From positions 186,001 through 250,000 of the forward strand of contig NZ_AP018690.1 in assembly GCF_002157735.2 (NCBI RefSeq): 64,000 nt of DNA, given 5' to 3'. Shown in pieces: positions 9,089-35,573 of the stretch; position 1 is the first letter of the stretch, and each line of letters starts with the position of its first letter. A program made the translations under genes and the position numbers. The notes under the pieces were generated by a model. The model saw only the letters and a program-made list of their open reading frames with translations, had not been told where the DNA came from and did no database searches. Source of the stretch: Vibrio aphrogenes. Its GTDB lineage: Bacteria > Pseudomonadota > Gammaproteobacteria > Enterobacterales > Vibrionaceae.

Positions 9089-10070
9089 GAAGACCTCCTA
9101 TTTGAGAGGCTGTTGTGAGTGTGGAGGCCGCACCAAGTTGTGATAATAAAGGTTCAGCACAAGACAATGAACGCATAGGAATAGCCATACTTTTACAAAT
9201 CTTTTCTAATTGAGTGAGGTGTTCAGTGTAGCGATTTTTCAACTGATTACGGGTGTTTTTTTTGCCAAAATTCAGCCAATAAGTTTGCTCACCATTGGTG
9301 ACATATTCACTGCCTCGAAAGGTGGTATTGCCCATTTCTAGAGGATCGTAAATGTGCACAAACTGTAATCGATTATGTTGACGCAGTTGATTGAGTAATG
9401 GTTTAGCATGTAAATCTAAGCGTTTAAAATCACTGATAAAAATAATATCGCTGCCCTTAGGAGACATGCGATGTAAGGTTTGCATCACTTGCTTAAAATC
9501 CAGCGTAGGCGTGATTAAGTTTGGGCGGGCTTGCTGGGCTTGTAATTGTGCAATCGCTTGGTTATTACATTGAACCAATTGATGATTAATCTGTAACGCA
9601 CCTTGTTGGCGTGCGGTGGGTTTGACTTCAACCAATTTATCACCCAGATCAATCAGCGCCCCGATGCGATCTTTTTGCTCCACCGTTAGCCAACTCAATA
9701 AGCTAGCAAGATGCGCACACTGCACTGTTTTAAACAGCAGCTGTGAGCCAAAGCGCATACCGTTACTGAGATCAATATATAAAATAACCGGCTGCTCACG
9801 CTCTTCGGTGAATAACTTAGTATGGGCTTTACCGGTGCGCGCCGTAACCCGCCAATCTATTGAGCGAATATCATCGCCGGCTTGATATTGACGAACTTCA
9901 GCAAAGTTCATGCCGCGACCTTTTTGATTGCTGTTATGGCTGCCATTTAATTGCGACCACAAGCTTTTATTCGGTGGCTGCCAATGGACCGTATGATTTT
10001 TGTAGTACAGCAACTCCTTGAGATCTAATGTCGCACCAGTTGCAAAAGGAGGTAACTTTTGCGTCATCAT
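9081..10070 (-). CDS. DUF58 domain protein
   Basis: 329 residues, soluble, with the DUF58 hallmark segment DIRSIDWRVTARTGKAHTK (about residues 72-90) followed by a degenerate VWA-like fold (VILYIDLSNGMRFGS). DUF58 proteins are near-constant partners of MoxR AAA ATPases. The DxSxG arrangement suggests that the metal site is only partly kept. It starts in a 4-nt ATGA overlap with moxR, with ATG at 10070 and again at 10067, so translation is coupled. The exact biochemical role is unknown. Confidence 0.87.
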   Translation of the reverse strand: MMTQKLPPFATGATLDLKELLYYKNHTVHWQPPNKSLWSQLNGSHNSNQKGRGMNFAEVRQYQAGDDIRSIDWRVTARTGKAHTKLFTEEREQPVILYIDLSNGMRFGSQLLFKTVQCAHLASLLSWLTVEQKDRIGALIDLGDKLVEVKPTARQQGALQINHQLVQCNNQAIAQLQAQQARPNLITPTLDFKQVMQTLHRMSPKGSDIIFISDFKRLDLHAKPLLNQLRQHNRLQFVHIYDPLEMGNTTFRGSEYVTNGEQTYWLNFGKKNTRNQLKNRYTEHLTQLEKICKSMAIPMRSLSCAEPLLSQLGAASTLTTASQIGGLHE

Positions 10071-11029
10071 GCACTGCCAACCTGTGCTAATAACTCAGCA
10101 ATTACACGATTGGCGGTGATGCCTTCGGCTTGTGCTGGATAGCTTAATAATAATCGATGGCGTAATACCGGAAATGCCATGGCTTGAACATCTTCAGGGC
10201 TCACAAAATCACGACCAGCCAGCCAAGCATGCGCACGCGCACAGCGATCTAAAGCAATGGTTGCGCGAGGGCTGACTCCCATTTGTAGCCATTCACCAAG
10301 CAGAGCGTTGTATTGTGAAGGCTGGCGCGTTGCCATGATCAAACGAATGATGTATTGCTCAACATTATCGGCCATGTGAATAGACAAAGCCGCTTGTCGG
10401 GCATCAAAAATAGTCTGTTGCGACAATGTGATTGGTTGAGAGGCATGTTGGCCTTGGGCTTCACCACGGTTTAGGCGCAAAATATCTAATTCACTGTGAG
10501 CGTCAGGATAATCGACTTCAAGGTGCAATAAGAATCGGTCTAATTGTGCTTCAGGAAGAGGGTAGGTCCCTTCTTGTTCAATCGGGTTTTGAGTGGCCAT
10601 GACCAAGAATAACTCTGGTAATGGGTAAGATTGTCGGCCAACGGTAATTTGCTTTTCCGCCATCGCTTCGAGCATGGCCGCTTGCACTTTAGCCGGAGCT
10701 CGGTTGATTTCATCGGCTAAAATCAATGAGTTAAAAATCGGTCCCGCCTGAAAGGTAAATTCACCTGTCTCTGGGCGGAAAATATCCGTGCCCGTTAAAT
10801 CGGCAGGAAGCAGGTCGGGAGTAAATTGTACGCGATGAAAATCCCCTTCAATACAGTCCGCTAATACTTTGACGGCGCGGGTTTTGGCTAAGCCCGGAGG
10901 ACCTTCTACTAAAATATGACCATCAGCAAGAAGGGCGACTAAGAGTTGTTTTACTAATTCATTTTGGCCAATTACTTGAGAATTTAAGTATTGCTGAAGT
11001 TGCGCAAAAGCGTCCGAATGCATGGTCAA
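10067..11029 (-). CDS. moxR: MoxR-family AAA+ ATPase
   Basis: 320 residues with Walker A GPPGLAKT (43-50), Walker B LILADE (102-107), sensor 1 VMATQNP (about 147-153) and an arginine-finger region (EAQLDRF). MoxR ATPases are chaperone-like enzymes that help assemble or activate VWA-domain proteins, here BatA, BatB and the DUF58 protein. The likely start is a TTG at 11029 with AGGAG exactly 5 nt upstream. The in-frame ATG at 11023 would have about 11-nt spacing. It is the first gene of a six-gene operon with overlapping junctions. Confidence 0.9.
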   Translation of the reverse strand: MTMHSDAFAQLQQYLNSQVIGQNELVKQLLVALLADGHILVEGPPGLAKTRAVKVLADCIEGDFHRVQFTPDLLPADLTGTDIFRPETGEFTFQAGPIFNSLILADEINRAPAKVQAAMLEAMAEKQITVGRQSYPLPELFLVMATQNPIEQEGTYPLPEAQLDRFLLHLEVDYPDAHSELDILRLNRGEAQGQHASQPITLSQQTIFDARQAALSIHMADNVEQYIIRLIMATRQPSQYNALLGEWLQMGVSPRATIALDRCARAHAWLAGRDFVSPEDVQAMAFPVLRHRLLLSYPAQAEGITANRVIAELLAQVGSA

Positions 11030-11201
11030 AATATCTCCTGAAGTCTCAGATAATGATTGTATATCGATGAAATATATATGAAATTCTAAAATTCACAAAT
11101 GTGACAATTTGTAACTTGCCATGTAAGACCAGTTTGAGGGTAAAAAGTTCATCAATGCAGTAAAAAATGGAATAAAAACCGAGAGTTTGGGGAAGCGTTT
11201 G

Positions 11202-11300
11202 ATGAAGTTTTATACATTGGTTTGTTTGTTGGTCACGATTGGGCGGCTTTTGTGGCAGTTACCCAGTAAAGTCGCTAGAATAATGACAATAGATTTTTAA
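11202..11300 (+). CDS. Possible 32-residue hydrophobic peptide
   Basis: A short frame begins with ATG at 11202, preceded by GGGGAA at about 7-nt spacing, and stops at 11300. The peptide starts MKFYTLVCLLVTIG and has one short hydrophobic stretch followed by a basic segment, as in small membrane proteins. It lies 22 nt before the next small gene, so both could share a transcript. There is no homology evidence and the frame may be fortuitous. Confidence 0.3.
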   Translation: MKFYTLVCLLVTIGRLLWQLPSKVARIMTIDF

Positions 11301-11322
11301 ATTAGATGTTGGATATATACAC

Positions 11323-11526
11323 ATGAGTCAAGATATCGAAAAAGAACTGGAAGCCATGTCAGCCGAAATGACAGAAGCTCCAGAAACGCCATTACCGAGC
11401 CTTGAAGAGCAAAAAGCTATCGTTGCTAAGCTAAAAAAACTAGAACAAGAAGGAAAACTTACCCCTGAGGTTTTAGAAGAGCACTTTGGCAAATTTAATG
11501 ACGATGAAGCTCGCCCAGTACATTAA
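11323..11526 (+). CDS. Small acidic helical protein of unknown function
   Basis: 67 residues, rich in Glu and Lys, predicted mostly helical (LEEQKAIVAKLKKLEQEGKL), with no signal peptide, cysteines or membrane segment. A strong intrinsic terminator follows 40 bp downstream, which supports a real transcription unit. I do not recognise a named family. Only a weak GGA lies upstream of the ATG. Confidence 0.6.
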   Translation: MSQDIEKELEAMSAEMTEAPETPLPSLEEQKAIVAKLKKLEQEGKLTPEVLEEHFGKFNDDEARPVH

Positions 11527-11565
11527 TCGGCTGAGTGGATAAGATAACTCATCGTTTGAATAGAT

Positions 11566-11595
11566 AAACGTCTGCCCTGTTGCAGGCGTTTTTTT
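11566..11595 (+). terminator. Intrinsic terminator
   Basis: A 10-bp stem (AAACGTCTGC paired with GCAGGCGTTT, one T-G pair) with a 6-nt loop runs into a run of seven or more T. It ends the transcript of the small protein at 11323-11526. Confidence 0.88.
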
Positions 11596-11658
11596 ACCGC
11601 TAATTTTATTCACGGTTGTCGTTTTATTTACGATTATCGCTTTCTTACAGTGATAGCT

Positions 11659-11699
11659 GTATTGAGTGACTTCTAGTTATCCGCAGCTGATGTTAATTA
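11659..11699 (-). repeat. Solo end of the MITE-like element found at 52811-53052
   Basis: Twenty-six bases at 11659-11684 are the exact reverse complement of 52826-52851. Similarity continues outward through TAATTAAC with a few changes, so about 41 bp match in all. The second terminal repeat is not seen nearby, so this looks like a truncated copy. It ends 33 bp upstream of the DUF3820 gene start. Confidence 0.85.
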
Positions 11700-11732
11700 T
11701 ACCGTTTTGAATGTAAGGCGTAGGATATACGG

Positions 11733-11948
11733 ATGTTAGAAAAAGAAAATTTAATCAAATTAGCCAGAACGCCGATGCCTTTTGGGAAGTATGCAGGGCG
11801 AATGTTAATCGATTTGCCGGAAGAGTATTTGTTGTGGTTTCAAAATAAAGCTGAGTTTCCCAAAGGGGAGCTGGGGGATTTATTGAAACTGTGTTTGGCG
11901 CTAAAAATTGAAGGATTAGACAGCTTGGTGAAACCATTAAAACGTTGA
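11733..11948 (+). CDS. DUF3820 family small protein
   Basis: 71 residues. The pattern MPFGKYAGRMLIDLPEEYLLWF (residues 15-36, key residues FGKYxG, DLPxxYLxWF) is diagnostic of DUF3820, a family called quorum-sensing-regulated virulence factor after a Pseudomonas structure. Related sequence occurs at the ends of some exonucleases. The protein is cytoplasmic and single-domain at the usual length for the family. The biochemical function is unknown. It is followed by a bidirectional terminator shared with the convergent purC. Confidence 0.8.
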   Translation: MLEKENLIKLARTPMPFGKYAGRMLIDLPEEYLLWFQNKAEFPKGELGDLLKLCLALKIEGLDSLVKPLKR

Positions 11949-12001
11949 GCCGGGTGTTTAACAAACGATATAAAAAAGAGTTATGTAAAAATGCGTTATG
12001 T

Positions 12002-12042
12002 AAAAAAGAGTGAAGCCGATTAAAGGGCGGCACTCTTTTTTT
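12002..12042. terminator. Bidirectional terminator between the DUF3820 gene and purC
   Basis: AAAAAAGAGTG at 12002-12012 pairs with CACTCTTTTTTT at 12031-12042. The loop itself can form a short GCC/GGC helix. A and T tracts on both sides allow it to stop transcripts from either direction. Confidence 0.85.
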
Positions 12043-12125
12043 ATGTTTGCTCAATTCTTATTTTGGCTCAGTGTTAGGTTCGTTCAGCGTGGAGACCACA
12101 CATCAGTTTTGAGCCAGCATCGAAC

Positions 12126-13229
12126 TTAGACAATTAAGTCGTAATCTTGGCGTAAAATATCAATAATTTCTTGCTTAGGATTAGCACTTAATTCGATTTT
12201 TTTACCAGTAATCTTTTCAGCAATACCTAAGTAAGTTTCTGATATTTTCATAATCTCTTGTTGTGGTAAGGCGTTATTTTTGGCTAAGGCAAAACGTTCA
12301 TCCATGAGGTTTTTGTTGAGCAGAATATCCGGGTCTGGGAAGTAGTTGAGCAAGAATTGACGGAAGCCTTCTTTTGAGTTTTCAACTATACGGCCTTGTT
12401 GATATTCGCTCTTATCCCAAATACGTGAAGAGTCTGGCGTTCCTACTTCATCCATGTAGATGAGTTTTTCATTGCCGGCGGCATCGTTGACATAACCAAA
12501 CTCAAACTTGGTGTCTACGAAGATTTGATCAACCTTATCAAGCGCTTCGCTGATCACTTTAAAGCCTTCTTTTAAAAGCTTTTCATAATGAGCAATATCG
12601 GCGGCTTTAGAAAAATTAAACGCCGCAAAATTGGCTTCAATATCCTGACGAGAGACATTGACATCATCGGCTTCTGGGACATTAGGAATCCCTTTTAAAA
12701 TTCCTTTGGTGGAGGGGGTCATCAGTAACTCAGGTAAAGCTTTATCTTTTTCTAAACCTTCAGGTAAAGCAATGCCACAAAATTCGCGCTCGCCTTTTTC
12801 ATAAGCTCGCCACATTGAGCCAGTGATGTATTGACGGCAAATCGCTTCAATCATGACTGGGCGAGCTTTTTGTACGATCCAAATAAATGGATGAGGGATA
12901 TCAAGGATGTGGCTATCGGCAAGGTGATTGTCTTTAAAGAGTTGAAACCAGTGGTTTGAAATAGCATTGAGTGCCGCGCCTTTACCTGGTACGCCTTGTA
13001 ATCCACCTTCGCCATGCCAGATACAATCAAAGGCCGAAATGCGGTCACTGATCACCATGATGGCGAGAGGCGCATCTTCTGCAACATCGTAGCCTTTTTG
13101 TTGGATCAGTCGACGGCTGTCTTCTGCGGTTAACCAATATACAGAACGTACTTTACCGCTATGAACGGGTTTATCAGTACGGATGGGAAGATCATCATTC
13201 ACGGCAAGAACTTGATTTGCAATGCTCAT
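12126..13229 (-). CDS. purC: Phosphoribosylaminoimidazole-succinocarboxamide synthase (SAICAR synthetase)
   Basis: About 367 residues. PurC condenses CAIR with aspartate using ATP in de novo purine synthesis. Recognisable segments are the glycine and lysine loop [12 protein letters not shown] (about 24-35), [10 protein letters not shown] (about 63-72), [16 protein letters not shown] and [15 protein letters not shown]. The protein is the longer form seen in Vibrio rather than the 237-residue E. coli type. The start is taken as the ATG at 13229, AGGA about 8 nt upstream, giving [13 protein letters not shown]. The ATG at 13235 is too close to the ribosome binding site. A perfect PurR core palindrome lies about 100 bp upstream. 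Confidence 0.93.
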
Positions 13230-13328
13230 TTCCATTTTCCTACTAGGCTATATTAACGTGGCATGAACGCCTTTCATGCTAGAAAGTGGCATAATAGCAG
13301 AACTTACTCACTGCCTTCCAGAGAAAAA

Positions 13329-16305: not shown

Positions 16306-19300
16306 ATGATATCAAATAACCCACCTTCGAAAACTTCTTCATCTCGTCACATTTTGCCTAGTTTACCTCAAAGATATGATGTTGATACGTTAGTCAGCCA
16401 ATATCTTGATGAACTACAAGCTCAGGGCTTTCGTGGTGATATTGAGCAAACCTATGCCAGTCGTTTGGCGGTTGCAACGGATAACAGTGTATATCAACAG
16501 CTTCCTCAAGCCGTTGTACTTCCTAAAGATAATCAAGATGTTCAACTGATTGGTCGTATTGGTTCACAAGAAAAATACGCCACCATTACCTTTTCACCTC
16601 GTGGGGGCGGTACGGGCACAAATGGTCAATCCTTAACGAAAGGTATTGTGGTGGATATGTCTCGCCACATGAATAAAGTACTCGAAGTGAATGAAGCGGA
16701 AGGCTGGGTTCGGGTGCAATCTGGGGTTGTTAAAGATCAACTGAATGATGCAGTACGTCCTTATGGGTTCTTTTTCTCACCCGATTTGTCGACCAGTAAC
16801 CGCGCGACCATTGGTGGTATGGTGAATACCGATGCGTCAGGTCAAGGTTCTTTAAAATATGGTAAAACCTCGGATCATGTTCTGTCATTACAAGCGGTGT
16901 TTGCTGATGGATCAATGTACGAAACTGATGGTTCTCAAGGTCAGCCTGAATTAGGCAGCTTTGCCTTACACGCTTACCAAATGACCGAGCAGATTTGTCG
17001 AGAAAATCGCGCGGCAATAGAAGCTAAATTTCCACCGTTGAATCGCTTTTTAACCGGTTATGATCTCAAAAATGCCTTATCTTTTACTGAAGATGAACAT
17101 GGTGTGTTTGACTTGGGACGGGTGTTATGTGGGGCCGAAGGTTCCTTAGCGTTTATTACCGAAGCTAAGTTGAATTTGACTCCGATCCCGAAAGCCCGTT
17201 CTTTGGTAAATATTAAATACAATTCTTTTGATTCAGCATTGCGCAGTGCGCCTTTGATGGTGCAAGCGCAAGCCTTATCGGTAGAAACCGTGGATTCGAA
17301 AGTATTGAACCTAGCTAAACAAGATATCGTTTGGCATACCGTTAGCGATCTTATTACCGATGTTCCTGGTAAAGAAATGCAGGGCATCAATATTGTAGAG
17401 TTTGCTGGGCAAGACACCAATGAAGTAACTCAACAAGTACAGGCGTTGGTCGCGCAACTAGATAAGCAATTGGAAACAGAAGACGGTGGAATCATCGGCT
17501 TTCAAGTGTGTCATGATCTTGATAGCATCAATAAAATCTATAACATGCGCAAAAAAGCGGTGGGTTTATTGGGCGGAGCTAAAGGTCGAGCTAAGCCGAT
17601 TGCTTTTGCTGAAGACACTTGTGTGCCGCCAGAGAACTTGGCCGATTTTATTGTGGAGTTCCGTGCGTTATTAGATGAAAAACAGCTCAACTACGGCATG
17701 TTTGGCCATGTGGATGCCGGTGTATTGCACGTACGTCCTGCTTTGGATTTATGTGATCCTGAACAAGAAAAAATGATGCATCAAGTGTCTGATGAAGTCG
17801 TTAAATTAGTAGCTAAATATGGCGGCTTGATGTGGGGCGAACATGGTAAAGGTTATCGCTCTGAATATGGCCCTGAATTTTTCGGTGAGCAGTTATTTAC
17901 CCAATTGCGCCGTGTGAAGGCAGCGTTTGATCCCTTAAATAAAATGAATCCAGGTAAGATCTGTACGCCAATAGAGAGTCAAGATGAATTGGTGAAAGTG
18001 TCGGATACCAAACGAGCGTTTTATGACCGTCAAATTCCAGTCACGGTACGTGATAGCTTTAGACAAGCAATGGAATGTAATGGTAATGGCCTATGTTTTA
18101 ACTATGATGTGAACTCTCCGATGTGTCCATCGATGAAAATCACCGCCGATCGCCGCCATTCGCCAAAAGGCCGTGCGGGCTTAGTTCGGGAATGGTTACG
18201 TCAATTGACCGCCAGTGGGGTGGATATTCTGGATTTAGAAGAAACCGCCTTGCATCAATCAACCTCGATCAAAACCATGATTGACCGCATCCGCCATAGC
18301 TTAAACAAAAAAGATGAATACGATTTCTCCCATGAAGTATTTGAAGCGCTCAATGGCTGTTTGGCTTGTAAAGCTTGTGCCAGTCAATGCCCGATTAATG
18401 TCGATGTCCCATCATTTCGTGCTCGCTTTTTAAATGTTTATTACACTCGCTATCAACGTCCGGCGAAAGATTATTTAGTGGGCAATATTGAAAGCTTGCT
18501 ACCGCTGATGGCAACCGCTCCCAAAGTAGTCAATGGCATATTGGCAATGCGCTGGGTTCAGTCACTCACGAAAAAGACAATTGGCTATATTGATACTCCG
18601 TTATTATCGGTACCGACGTTAAAACAGGCGTTAAGCGATCAATTGTGGGATAGCCGTTTCAGCTTGTCTCAATTGCAATCTTTATCGGATGAAAAACGCA
18701 AAGATTATTTGTTAATCGTACAAGATCCATTTACCACCTATTATGATGCTGATGTGGTTTATGACTTTGTCGACTTAGCGGTGAAACTAGGTAAGAAACC
18801 GGTTGTATTGCCATTTAAACCGAATGGAAAAGCACAACATATTAAAGGCTTCTTAAAACAATTTGCTCAAACTGCCACTTCAACCGCTGAGTTTCTCACC
18901 CAAATTGCCGATTTGAAGATCCCTATGGTGGGAGTTGATCCGGCGACAGTACTTTGTTACCGCGATGAATATCGCGAAGTGTTAGGTGAAAAAGCGCAGA
19001 GTTTTGAGGTGTTGAGCGTACATGAATGGCTGCAACCGAACTTATCATCGTTTAAATATTCAGCCAAAGCAGATTCTTCTCCTTGGTATCTGTTTTCACA
19101 TTGTACTGAGAAAACGAAGTTGCCTAACTCGGAGAAGCAATGGGGAGCGATCTTCAGCCACTTTGGAGCGACATTGACTTCAATTCCGGTAGGCTGTTGT
19201 GGCATGGCGGGCACCTTTGGCCATGAAGCGGATAAATTTGAGATGTCACAAGGGATTTATCAGCTGAGCTGGCAGCCAAATTTAAACCGACTGGATAAAG

Positions 19301-30822: not shown

Positions 30823-30928
30823 TCTCCCTGAAGGCGATTTTCGTGCGCGACTTATAAAGGTGCTTTCAATTTGCTTTTTCAGTAATTCTAGTTGTTATAG
30901 CGGTAGGGTAATACCAATCACTCAACAA

Positions 30929-31546
30929 TCACACCAATTCATTATGACGCGCGAAATCGATAAGCTCTAACACTGAGTTGGCATTGAGCTTTATCTTTAG
31001 CTTGTGTTTATAGGTACTGATGGTTTTTTCACTGAGTAATAGTTTCTCTCCTATTTGTTTATTGCCAAGGCCCTGAGCGATTAATATGAGTACGCTTAAT
31101 TCTCGTGGAGTTAACGTATTGAGAAGAGGGTTTGAACCCTTAGTCATAGAATCGGCGGCTTGTTCTAGTTGAGGAAAAAAACGATAATTACGTAATATCA
31201 ATCGAACGATCTCAAAGAGTGAATCAAAATCTTCACTTTTGGTGACATAACCATCTGCTCCTGCTTGTTGACAGCGCTGTACGATATGAGCGCTTTCATT
31301 AGTCGACAATATCAAAACTTTTGGAGGGTTACTCATGGATTTAATTCGCTTTAGAATTTGAAAACCATCACTTTGTGGTAGGCCGATATCAAGGACGACT
31401 AGATCCGCTTGATTGGCTTTTTTGATAGCTTCAATACCGCTCTCAGTCTCAAGAATCACTTGCATGTCGTTTTTTTCAAGCAATGTTTTAACAGCAAAGC
31501 GAACCACTGGGTGATCGTCAACAACAATTACCTTTTTTCTTATCAA
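30929..31546 (-). CDS. NarL/LuxR-type response regulator (orphan)
   Basis: 205 residues: a receiver domain with acidic pocket DD (10-11), phospho-acceptor D53 in VLDIGLP and a C-terminal LuxR HTH (about 144-190, LTPRELSVLILIAQGLGNKQIGEKLLLSEKTISTYKHKL). The overall pattern is that of BvgA/FimZ-type regulators. No histidine kinase is adjacent, so the partner is elsewhere. Its nearest neighbours on the same strand are the TSP3 lipoprotein and OmpA genes, separated by 338 bp and a terminator, so it may regulate them but is not clearly in their operon. Confidence 0.88.
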   Translation of the reverse strand: MIRKKVIVVDDHPVVRFAVKTLLEKNDMQVILETESGIEAIKKANQADLVVLDIGLPQSDGFQILKRIKSMSNPPKVLILSTNESAHIVQRCQQAGADGYVTKSEDFDSLFEIVRLILRNYRFFPQLEQAADSMTKGSNPLLNTLTPRELSVLILIAQGLGNKQIGEKLLLSEKTISTYKHKLKIKLNANSVLELIDFARHNELV

Positions 31547-31884
31547 TGTGTGTTTCCTTAATCAAGCTAATTTAAGCACTAATAATTCATGCAATTATTA
31601 CAGATAAGGAAAGACTTACCAACTTTGCTTGATAATTTGTTCGCATTATAAGTATTTACTTATCTCAAAAGCTAACCACCTATCTAGGTCAATTTTTTAT
31701 TATTGGTCATAGTATTTTTATTATTATTTATAGCAGAAAGGGTGCGTTGAGAGAGGCTATAAGATTATGAAATGCAGTGATAATAAAAGGCAATGAGTGA
31801 ATAGAATGAAATGTTTGATTAAAGCATAAAAATATGTCAGTAGTTTGTCTTGTATAAAGTCAAACTACTGACTTTTTAAACACC
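31547..31884. other. AT-rich gap without a gene
   Basis: 338 bp between the response regulator and the TSP3 lipoprotein gene. Apart from the hairpin at 31836-31877 I see only AT-rich sequence that must hold the promoter of the regulator. No coding frame of substance. Confidence 0.6.
31836..31877. terminator. Terminator hairpin after the TSP3 lipoprotein gene
   Basis: GTCAGTAGTTTG and CAAACTACTGAC form a perfect 12-bp inverted repeat with a 13-nt loop. On the minus strand it is followed by ATATTTTTATG, and on the plus strand by TTTTT. It lies 8 bp beyond the stop codon of the minus-strand gene. Confidence 0.8.
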
Positions 31885-34140
31885 TTAATCTATAGGCCTT
31901 TGGCAACTGATATAAAATGGCAATATGAAGTTTATAGGTGACCAGATATGTCCATCTACAAAAGAGAATTTCGTGCGGCTGAAGGTCTCATTGGTCCAAT
32001 AATCTCCCACAGGCCATCCATTCTTTTGCAACTCAACCAAAATTTCGGCATTATTACTACCTAAACTAGCTCTTAGGTCAAGATAATTCTCTTCAGTCGC
32101 AAGCCCGAACCCTAAAGCTTCACACGTGGCTCTCCCTGGAGTTAGGTCGTAGATAGCGTATTCAATGCCATCATAGTTTCTTATATCATCAACTGCTAAT
32201 CCAGCATTACGTATTTGCTCAAGAGTTAGTGGCGGCATTATTTCATAACCATTAATAAAATAGGATCTTAGTCCAGACTTCATAGTCAATGTTTCTTCTT
32301 GCACTACACCGTCAAAACTACCAGCACCTGTCCAAATCACTTTAAAATCCCTTTCAAAGTCTTGTGTTGAATCGACATCTACTTTACTGGCATCAATTTC
32401 GCCTGTTGCGGGATTAATAGTAATACCCAAATTGTTCCCTGTAGAGTCTAGACTCCATGCTCCTAGTTTATTGTCGTCCGGAATTACAATGACATTACCG
32501 TTTATCAACATAACACTTGCTTGCGCTTTAAAACTTTGTTGTTGTTTGTAGATAATAGGTGCTGTGACTTTACCAGCGAGTAAGAAAGTCACCGTGGTTT
32601 CAGACGGTTTGCTTAAAGTGACTTTGAACGTCTTTTCTATTGGACCGGTTAAATTATTAAACCAACCTTCATTTACATACGAAGCTCGAATACTTAGAGG
32701 CTCATCCACGTAAGGGAAGGCTTGTGTAACTGGTGGAATTCTTACTTGCCCTTCAGTATTGACTGTAAACCCTTCGCTAGAGAGATCGTTGCCGTCGGCA
32801 TCCAGTACTTCCCAGGTTACGTGGTTGGCATCCGGCACATCGAGCGTACTAAATACTCTGCCTGGCTCTGTACTTACCTCAAAACGGATACTTGCCTGCA
32901 AGTTCATGTCTGGCAACACGCTGCTATTGTCCAATACCAATTCAGGGTTCATTACAGTCGGGGCAGAGATGGGAATGTTTGGATTATTGTCATCCCAACC
33001 TTCAATGACTTCCTGACCTTTCGGGAATCCATCACCATCTTCGTCTTGATCGCCACCAGCCACTGGGCTATTCGGGTCGTTCTTATCCCAACCTTCGATG
33101 AATTCTCGACCATCTCTGAGGCCATCACCATCACTGTCTTGGTCACCACCCACCACTGGGCTGTTTGGGTCATTCGGATCCCAGCCTTCGACGACTTCAC
33201 GGCCATTAGGAATGCCATCACCATCACTGTCTTTATGGCCATCTGTCACTGGGTCATTAGCATCGTTTCTATCCCAACCTTTAGCGTACTCCTGACCGTC
33301 TTTGATACCATCACCATCACTGTCTTGGTCGCCATTTTGTACCGGGCTATTCGGGTCATTTGGATCCCAACCTTCCACGATTTCACGCCCATCAGGAATG
33401 CCGTCACCATCACTGTCTCGATCGCCATTTTGCACAGGGTCATTAGGGTCAGTGGGATCCCAGCCTTCAACGACTTCACGCCCATCAGTGATGCCATCAC
33501 CATCGCTGTCTTGGTTGCCATTTTGTACTGGGCTATTTGGATCGTTCGGGTTCCAACCTTCTGCGTGCTCACGGCCGTCAGTGATGCCATCGCCATCGCT
33601 GTCTTGATCACCATTTTCTATTGGGCTGTTCGGGTCATTCGGATCCCAACCTTCCACCACTTCACGACCATCAGGAATACCGTCACCATCACTGTCTTGG
33701 TTGCCATTGTGAACAGGGTCATTAGGATCATTAGGGTCCCAGCCTTCCGCGTGTTCTTGACCGTCTCTGATACCATCACCATCGCTGTCTTGGTCGCCAC
33801 CCTGAACTGGGCTGTTTGGGTCATTTGGGTCCCAACCTTCTACGATTTCACGACCATCAGGAATGCCGTCGCCATCACTGTCTTTATCGCCACCAGGTAC
33901 TGGATCGTTCGGGTCATTTGGGTTGGTGCCATTGCGAATTTCATCGGCATCAGAAATGCCATCGCCATCGCTGTCACATATAAACTCTGTGCATGAACCA
34001 ATAGGGTCAGTAATTGGACTCCTAATCGGGTTAGGTAAGCCATCGTCATCAGAGCCACACCCGGCTAAAATCAAGGCCAGCAACGCAGCAGCGGGCAATT
34101 TTCCTGAGATTTTACTCATGTTATTAATACGTTTATTCAT
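31885..34140 (-). CDS. TSP3 calcium-repeat lipoprotein with C-terminal adhesion-type domain
   Basis: 751 residues. A lipoprotein signal (LALILAGC, Cys28) is followed by about eleven 31-residue repeats (residues 56-396) of the form DSDGDGIPDGREVVEGWD...PNDPNSPV, each with a DxDxDG calcium-binding loop of the thrombospondin type 3 class. Next come Ig-like beta domains (about 400-620). The C-terminal domain contains CEALGFGLATEENYLDL, GWPVGDYWTNETF and a final ISCQ, resembling the DUF823/adhesion and DUF1566-like domain of enteric adhesins. The architecture is a calcium-stiffened stalk carrying a tip domain, probably anchored in the outer membrane. It is the second gene after the OmpA-family gene, 15 bp downstream, likely co-transcribed. 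The start is the ATG at 34140, and 34119 is an alternative. Confidence 0.85.
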   Translation of the reverse strand: MNKRINNMSKISGKLPAAALLALILAGCGSDDDGLPNPIRSPITDPIGSCTEFICDSDGDGISDADEIRNGTNPNDPNDPVPGGDKDSDGDGIPDGREIVEGWDPNDPNSPVQGGDQDSDGDGIRDGQEHAEGWDPNDPNDPVHNGNQDSDGDGIPDGREVVEGWDPNDPNSPIENGDQDSDGDGITDGREHAEGWNPNDPNSPVQNGNQDSDGDGITDGREVVEGWDPTDPNDPVQNGDRDSDGDGIPDGREIVEGWDPNDPNSPVQNGDQDSDGDGIKDGQEYAKGWDRNDANDPVTDGHKDSDGDGIPNGREVVEGWDPNDPNSPVVGGDQDSDGDGLRDGREFIEGWDKNDPNSPVAGGDQDEDGDGFPKGQEVIEGWDDNNPNIPISAPTVMNPELVLDNSSVLPDMNLQASIRFEVSTEPGRVFSTLDVPDANHVTWEVLDADGNDLSSEGFTVNTEGQVRIPPVTQAFPYVDEPLSIRASYVNEGWFNNLTGPIEKTFKVTLSKPSETTVTFLLAGKVTAPIIYKQQQSFKAQASVMLINGNVIVIPDDNKLGAWSLDSTGNNLGITINPATGEIDASKVDVDSTQDFERDFKVIWTGAGSFDGVVQEETLTMKSGLRSYFINGYEIMPPLTLEQIRNAGLAVDDIRNYDGIEYAIYDLTPGRATCEALGFGLATEENYLDLRASLGSNNAEILVELQKNGWPVGDYWTNETFSRTKFSFVDGHIWSPINFILPFYISCQRPID
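32953..33975. repeat. 93-bp coding tandem repeat (about 11 units)
   Basis: Units of 93 bp encode the 31-residue TSP3 repeats. Alternate units resemble each other (GREVVEGWDPNDPNSP type against GQEHAEGWDPNDPNDP type), suggesting expansion by 186-bp doubles. The periodic composition creates many long antisense frames, including one of 424 codons on the plus strand, which I regard as shadows. Confidence 0.93.
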
Positions 34141-34155
34141 AAAATACTACCTGTT

Positions 34156-35265
34156 TTATTGAAACTCAGAAGTGATAGGTTGTTGGATCACCTCTGGTGA
34201 GATAATTTCTACTCGACGGTTAAAAGCGCGGCCTTGTGCGGTATCATTCGAGGCGATAGGGCGAAACTCGCCATAACCTTTAACAGTGATACGATCACGC
34301 TCGATGCCTTGTGACATTAAGTAATCCGCCACACGTTGCGCACGCGCTTCCGATAGCTGTTGGTTGTATGTCGCTCGGCCCACACTGTCGGTATGGCCAA
34401 TAACTTCAACTGTTGCTTGTGGGTAACGCTGCAAACGCTGAATGGTGGCTGCTAACTCTGTTTTCATCACAGGAGACAGTTCTGTACTGTTGCTGCCAAA
34501 GCCACTGCTTTTACTATCGAAGCCACTCCAATCTCGCAATATTTGAACTTGCTGCTTAATGATGACTGGCTGTGAGGTTTCCACTTTCTTTTCGGAAGGT
34601 TGCGTTTCTTTTTCGACGATAGGTAATATCGTGTTTTGTAGCGGCGTTGTGCCACCAAAGCGGTAATCCAGCCCAAAGCCAAGAAAATGCACATCTGATG
34701 ATCCTGTGGTTTTTGAATCACCCACATCATAGAAATACTGGTATTCCATACGGGCACTTAAGTGTTGGGATAATCGGTATTCCAAACCGCCCCCTAGCAT
34801 GGGAGAGAAACCGGAATCATCCATATCTTTTGCGCTAGGTTCATCTGCGTCAGTATTAACATTCCAGTAGAGTGCTCCACCTTTACCAAACACCAAAAGT
34901 TGCTTGCTTAGCGCGTAATCTGCTTTTAGCCCCAACTCCAAACCTTGTACTGTACTGCTGTAATCCACCAAGCTTGTTGGTTGTTCCATAGTCGGGTAGG
35001 TAGCCGATGGGCCGCCTAAATAAATATAACCGCCTTCTATTGCTAGCCAATCTAGTACCTGATAGCCACCGTATAACCCTGCAGCAATACCAGTCTCATC
35101 ACTACAAGACTCATGTTGTTCACCACAAGGGCTGCTGAATTTTGCAGCTCCAACTTTACCACCAGCATAGAATTCACTTGCCTGGTGTATCGCGGGGTTA
35201 GCGAAGGCAAAACTTGCTTGAAAAAGAAGTGCATTGGTAATTAGGGTAAATTTGAATAACCTCAT
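34156..35265 (-). CDS. OmpA-family outer-membrane protein
   Basis: 369 residues: signal peptide (to about residue 22, ASFAFA), an eight-stranded OmpA-like barrel (AGGKVGAAKFSS, AAGLYGGYQVLDWLAIEGGY, LGFGLDYRF), a linker with PSEKKVETSQP, and the OmpA C-terminal peptidoglycan-binding domain (about 250-352) with HTDSVGRATYNQQLSEARAQ and RVEI. Two cysteines in the first external loop (SPCGEQHESCSDE) could form a disulfide. It is upstream of, and likely co-transcribed with, the TSP3 lipoprotein gene. It links the outer membrane to the cell wall and may also stabilise the adjacent surface protein. Confidence 0.9.
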   Translation of the reverse strand: MRLFKFTLITNALLFQASFAFANPAIHQASEFYAGGKVGAAKFSSPCGEQHESCSDETGIAAGLYGGYQVLDWLAIEGGYIYLGGPSATYPTMEQPTSLVDYSSTVQGLELGLKADYALSKQLLVFGKGGALYWNVNTDADEPSAKDMDDSGFSPMLGGGLEYRLSQHLSARMEYQYFYDVGDSKTTGSSDVHFLGFGLDYRFGGTTPLQNTILPIVEKETQPSEKKVETSQPVIIKQQVQILRDWSGFDSKSSGFGSNSTELSPVMKTELAATIQRLQRYPQATVEVIGHTDSVGRATYNQQLSEARAQRVADYLMSQGIERDRITVKGYGEFRPIASNDTAQGRAFNRRVEIISPEVIQQPITSEFQ

Positions 35266-35573
35266 CGTGTTCTCACCTTAGAAACTATTTATTAAGTAGT
35301 TGGTGATGTTGAACGATTAGAAGGGGGTTTATAAGCAGGCTATACTTTCATTTTAATAGGAAAATGCTTATATCATTTACACTTGAAGCTACAGGTTTGT
35401 TAACGATATTTATTTGTCTTGCTGTAAATGGGGATAAGGTAAATATGAGTTTATTTGAGCAATAAATATTGAAAGAAGGATATGAAAGACACTTTTTATA
35501 AAAAATAAAAAATAAGCAGCCACATGGACTGCTTGTTTTAATATTTATACGGTGTTTAATCCATATCAAACAC
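35266..35573. other. Gap holding the ompA-family promoter and the gcd terminator
   Basis: 308 bp, AT-rich. The left part carries the minus-strand terminator at 35505-35540, and the rest should contain the promoter for the OmpA and TSP3 genes. No gene was seen. Confidence 0.5.
35505..35540 (-). terminator. Intrinsic terminator after gcd
   Basis: On the minus strand AAGCAG pairs with CTGCTT and is followed by ATTTTTTATTTT. It lies about 35 bp past the gcd stop codon. Confidence 0.7.

Follow-up and report, generated by a model that had tools for sequence, protein, structure and literature searches.

Tips of the DUF1566 family are known retroelement targets, including in Vibrio cholerae (PMC6642488), and the retroelement-targeted surface lipoprotein with a DUF1566/Lcl_C tip from Legionella is attributed to Arambula 2013, as cited in PMC4891356. 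The lipoprotein encoded in the window, by which is meant the whole 64,000-nucleotide stretch of Vibrio aphrogenes DNA that was analysed, shares with these proteins a C-terminal, C-type-lectin-like variable tip and presumed ligand binding at the surface, but it has a long TSP3 stalk, an OmpA-like partner gene and no retroelement. The intimin and invasin inverse autotransporters (InvE/InvD-type domain PF05689; 5n40) also combine an outer-membrane barrel, an elongated stalk and a homologous tip, whereas in the window the barrel is of the OmpA type and the stalk is N-terminally lipid-anchored and composed of TSP3 repeats. Barrel and passenger, contained in one polypeptide in inverse autotransporters, are here the products of two genes with 15 nt between the stop codon of the OmpA-like gene and the start of the lipoprotein gene. 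Pairs annotated as 'OmpA family protein' and 'Ig-like domain-containing protein' on Vibrio plasmids (Table 1) have the same gene order and an Lcl_C/InvE_AD tip; their OmpA-like partners are about 35% identical to that of the window, and where the window lipoprotein has TSP3 repeats, theirs has a stalk of Big_2 Ig-like domains. The lipoprotein in the V. parahaemolyticus record appears as two frames that overlap. Myxococcal CglD and MtsD share TSP3 repeats on a cell-surface lipoprotein or cohesion protein, although the window lipoprotein falls outside both NCBIfam equivalogs with 56 bits against a cut-off of 400 and 48 bits against 800, respectively. The third gene of the locus encodes a regulator that shares with BvgA, EvgA and FimZ a receiver and a LuxR-type HTH with intact key residues, yet lies under the equivalog cut-offs and lacks an adjacent BvgS/EvgS-like kinase. 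A literature search, largely of open-access holdings, returned no description of this gene set.

The locus is on C2, an 880-kb replicon that is the smaller of the two contigs of the 3.375-Mb genome. The three genes are transcribed from the minus strand in the order OmpA-like gene, lipoprotein gene and regulator gene (Table 1). The 65 nt around the inverted repeat that follows the lipoprotein gene fold with -20.4 kcal/mol and have a U-rich tail; since this terminator-like hairpin closes the pair, the regulator gene is probably a transcription unit of its own. A promoter scan found no more sites than in shuffled sequence. The block is housed in the tolC-gcd interval (window 30823-35573), which is filled differently in close relatives: G109 has a sugar ABC transporter there, and G210 has genes of PAAR/VgrG-like type, indicating that the block of the window occupies a variable site.

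Table 1. Features of the V. aphrogenes locus (window coordinates) and of related loci (coordinates within each locus).
Feature	Position	Strand	Basis or remark
OmpA-like gene, 369 aa	34156..35265	-	Pfam domains; orthologs in 5 other Vibrio genomes
OmpA-type barrel	res 27-206 of OmpA-like protein	-	PF01389 (OmpA_membrane)
C-terminal OmpA peptidoglycan-binding domain	res 256-350 of OmpA-like protein	-	PF00691
TSP3-repeat lipoprotein gene, 751 aa	31885..34140	-	Pfam; sequence
Lipoprotein signal peptide, LAGC lipobox, Cys28	34057..34140	-	sequence
Eleven TSP3 repeats, 31 aa / 93 nt each	32953..33975	-	Pfam; regular period
Conserved middle domain, res ~394-625, without Pfam family	32266..32961	-	alignments
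C-terminal tip, res ~626-751, InvE_AD/Lcl_C-like, hypervariable among relatives	31888..32265	-	homology
Strong inverted repeat, likely terminator of pair	31831..31877		just 3' of lipoprotein stop codon
NarL/FixJ-family response regulator, 205 aa, TTG start	30929..31546	-	Pfam; NCBIfam; key residues
Plasmid pairs			V. parahaemolyticus NZ_CP080481; V. alginolyticus NZ_CP013488
L082 retroelement	VR 9808-9943; TR 10719-10854; RT 10836-12140; accessory 12120-12536		
L081 retroelement	VR 12124-12275; TR 13160-13302; RT 16365-17426		transposase genes inserted between

The OmpA-like protein belongs to the OmpA family in both of its parts, with Pfam matches to OmpA_membrane (9e-36, 123.7 bits against a cut-off of 21) and to the C-terminal OmpA domain (1.9e-22, 79.9 bits against 27.2), a domain that binds peptidoglycan. 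The results agree with the earlier note, which had described a barrel with a peptidoglycan anchor followed by a lipoprotein with eleven calcium-binding repeats. The latter description was likewise confirmed by the lipobox with its Cys28 and by a match to TSP3_bac (PF18884) of 1.9e-43 and 146 bits, well over the cut-off of 25. The repeats occupy residues 56-396 with the consensus DSDGDGIxDGREvvEGWDPNDPNsPvqnGDQ; Pfam delimits ten stretches, while the strict 31-residue period gives exactly eleven. The copy number differs between relatives at a constant period of 31 residues, as seen in two tandem lipoproteins of G186 that, at 785 and 754 aa, are exactly one unit apart. Against solved structures, the profile of the middle domain gave weak matches only. 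Structure prediction returned a pLDDT of 52 for three repeats and 38 for the middle domain with the tip, values too low for use and explained by the few sequences that could be supplied. Very long TSP3 genes were also observed near the OmpA-lipoprotein pair in G186 (L018:15881-19786), where the gene bears an InvE_AD tip, in G036 (L005:15605-16948) and in G025 (L006:133-2475).

The conservation of the locus was examined with a profile of the middle domain, which identified nine genes in six of 228 Vibrio genomes. An OmpA-like gene was linked to the lipoprotein in all six; eight of the nine lipoprotein genes lie directly 3' of it, the exception being the second copy of a tandem. The OmpA-like orthologs of the five other genomes are 41-54% identical to the window copy. 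As judged from these sequences, barrel and lipoprotein genuinely form a unit. Beyond the genus, 395 genomes sampled across the order yielded two weak partial matches only, and a plasmid search with the middle domain and tip yielded none. The flanks of the pair vary: G036 and G025 have katG-type and LysR-type genes there, and the neighbours in G076 are conserved housekeeping genes. In G036, the adhesin stop codon is followed immediately by a REP-associated-type transposase gene with repeated ends, present in one complete copy and several truncated ones (L005:5638-7846).

The conserved unit does not extend to the regulator, contrary to the three-gene set that the earlier note had proposed to seek in other genomes, as no regulator is found beside the pair in any of the five other Vibrio genomes that have it. 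The protein itself is the lone BvgA-like regulator that had been described: it matched Response_reg (1.2e-25) and GerE (1.6e-17), retains the phosphorylation residues DD10-11, D53 and K103 of the receiver ahead of the LuxR-type HTH, has FimZ and EvgA as best curated neighbours, both under cut-off, and is adjoined by no kinase gene. Its closest relatives show 37-43% identity. Those in G087, G105, G121 and chromosome 1 of the same genome (G000:C1:924614, 42% identity) adjoin a BvgS/EvgS-like hybrid kinase of 1.0-1.2 kilo-residues, and three of these four are near chaperone-usher genes. We put at even chances the explanation that the regulator is a bystander, placed with the pair between tolC and gcd by coincidence and controlling other genes through the BvgS-like kinase of its chromosomal paralog or through another kinase. 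Its absence beside the pair elsewhere, the intervening hairpin, the unrelated cargo of the interval in close relatives, and the paralog with its own kinase and fimbrial operon are consistent with this explanation. Against it, a BvgS/EvgS-like kinase lies beside all five relatives examined and surface-structure genes beside four of them. In G138 (L058:9404-17473) a BvgA/EvgA-like regulator and hybrid kinase abut three lipoprotein genes, one of which has an Lcl_C/InvE_AD tip; the other two, at about 865 aa, are nearly duplicates of each other. Furthermore, regulator and pair are both missing from the tolC-gcd interval in two close relatives in which it was seen whole, a pattern compatible with joint arrival. 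The regulator probably tunes surface adhesins, perhaps including the OmpA-lipoprotein pair, to which it has a weak link suggested by the gene neighbourhoods of its relatives, and maybe by way of a kinase encoded elsewhere.

The earlier note had also assigned the lipoprotein an adhesion-type tip. The isolated tip of the window has no Pfam match, and a match to InvE_AD or Lcl_C was absent across its own genome as well. The C-termini of its relatives are classified by Pfam as Lcl_C (PF07603) or InvE_AD (PF05689), and alignment of the window tip with one of them, L018:4037-4807, which carries InvE_AD at 3.6e-13, gave a Smith-Waterman score of 68. Shuffled sequences scored 27.4 on average (sd 4.7), and none of 2000 reached 68. 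The homology of the window tip to accepted members of the InvE_AD/Lcl_C families is thus significant, and the pattern C...LAT.E...WP..YW...C is shared as well. A tip profile that included the window sequence matched the solved chain 5n40_A, 'Putative invasin', at 8.7e-7. Other InvE_AD genes of the genus have different surroundings: several of 20 sampled regions adjoin usher-type fimbrial clusters and two have an OmpA-like gene directly upstream, indicating that OmpA pairing marks a subtype and is not general among proteins with this tip.

The tip is also the part of the lipoprotein that changes most. In the tandem copies of G186, both OmpA-paired lipoprotein loci (L018:7303-9660 and L018:11766-14030), 66 of 171 bases of the tip differ, while the preceding 769 bases differ at only 2 and the sequences are identical again afterwards. 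On this comparison, the tip diverges much faster than the rest of the lipoprotein. The differences are spread evenly over codon positions and include many synonymous C/T third-position changes, a distribution more in keeping with replacement through recombination between diverged copies than with mutagenesis directed at A. A retroelement origin of the G186 differences was considered and found unlikely in view of these synonymous changes and because none of the 17 reverse-transcriptase matches there has the GxxxSQ motif.

Diversification by a retroelement was evident in a sister pair on the 168-kb replicon C3 of G036 (L082:4647-12536), in which an OmpA-like gene precedes a lipoprotein gene whose 1411-aa product combines Big_2 repeats with an Lcl_C/InvE_AD tip. 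The two genes are followed by a diversity-generating retroelement with a template repeat and a GxxxSQ-motif reverse transcriptase (Table 1), and 21 of 22 changes from template to target are at A. Diversification of this kind is most readily understood if the binding site is exposed. A second, more decayed retroelement on G036:C2 (L081:8909-17844) targets a 1123-aa lipoprotein, with 19 of 31 changes at A. In V. genomosp. F10, a reverse-transcriptase-like gene that faces the adhesin (L006:10149-11111) was rejected as a retroelement, having the motif GIPRSCALSP in place of GxxxSQ and no template repeat found adjacent to it.

The combined results make it fairly probable that the pair is a two-gene surface adhesin in which an OmpA-like barrel anchored to peptidoglycan accompanies a calcium rod whose lectin-like tip can be exchanged. 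The OmpA-like protein would be seated in the outer membrane and grip the peptidoglycan, and Cys28 would give the lipoprotein its lipid anchor. The eleven putative calcium-binding repeats, together with the middle domain, may then raise the tip from the surface, where the InvE_AD/Lcl_C-type domain could bind a ligand on a host, a particle or another cell. Stalk and tip are the parts that change quickly: the number of repeats varies from copy to copy, and the tip is swapped or diversified at a far higher rate than the remainder. No dedicated exporter for the lipoprotein was identified. RcsF, a surface lipoprotein of E. coli, makes contact with OmpA at its periplasmic domain and not at the barrel, and OmpA does not export it (PMC7553776), a precedent that favours an anchoring role for the partner; most likely, the OmpA-like protein would anchor or position the lipoprotein rather than export it. 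The proposal in the earlier note of a surface adhesin with its own outer-membrane partner is thereby sustained in part. The OmpA-type partner linked in six of six genomes and the Ig-stalk plasmid versions speak for it. The sequences themselves show which genes are present, the linkage of the pair, the repeats, and the homology and rapid divergence of the tip; surface display, the calcium rod, ligand binding, contact between the partners and regulation are features that we infer.

An unlikely alternative is that the lipoprotein faces the periplasm, where the TSP3 rod and the OmpA-like protein would link the outer membrane to peptidoglycan as a strut that depends on calcium, with the tip bound to an envelope component. 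Peptidoglycan binding by the C-terminal OmpA domain agrees with such an arrangement, as does the periplasm being the default side for lipoproteins of gammaproteobacteria, and the contact of RcsF with the periplasmic domain of OmpA (PMC7553776) is also compatible with it. However, the fastest-changing part of the protein is the tip, which is of extracellular adhesion-domain families, and the tip of the G036 sister pair is diversified by a retroelement. A periplasmic strut should need neither a hypervariable end nor a distribution limited to 6 of 228 genomes.

Somewhat less probable still is that the OmpA-like barrel serves as an export channel that threads the lipoprotein to the surface, the split counterpart of an inverse autotransporter. 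The barrel, stalk and InvE_AD tip do resemble the parts of such a protein and the gene linkage is strict, but OmpA-type barrels are eight-stranded with a plugged lumen. Moreover, the vehicle of RcsF in E. coli is not OmpA (PMC7553776).

That the window tip was diversified by a retroelement in its own cell is scarcely credible, since, despite the targeting of related tips in G036 and of DUF1566 tips in V. cholerae (PMC6642488), the sole reverse transcriptase found in the genome has the retron/group-II-like motif QGAPTSP and not GxxxSQ, and the tip DNA (31885-32960 searched) has no second copy and no A-changed template repeat in the genome, so that nothing indicates an active retroelement there.

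Returning to the two-gene surface adhesin, the pair may tentatively be viewed, at rather less than even probability, as one member of a modular class in the Vibrionaceae in which an OmpA-like partner, required for display or anchoring, is combined with a lipoprotein of two swappable modules, a stalk (TSP3 or Ig-like) and a lectin-like tip, the latter diversified by retroelements or recombination depending on the member. The results suggest that a surface lipoprotein adhesin can have an OmpA-type partner dedicated to it, a point relevant to how gammaproteobacteria without known exporters place lipoproteins on the surface and keep them there. They also suggest that one adhesin architecture of marine bacteria is tied to hypervariation of the tip only, which some members achieve through a retroelement and others through recombination. 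The natural OmpA-lipoprotein pairs would thus be ready material for testing both surface placement and tip hypervariation.
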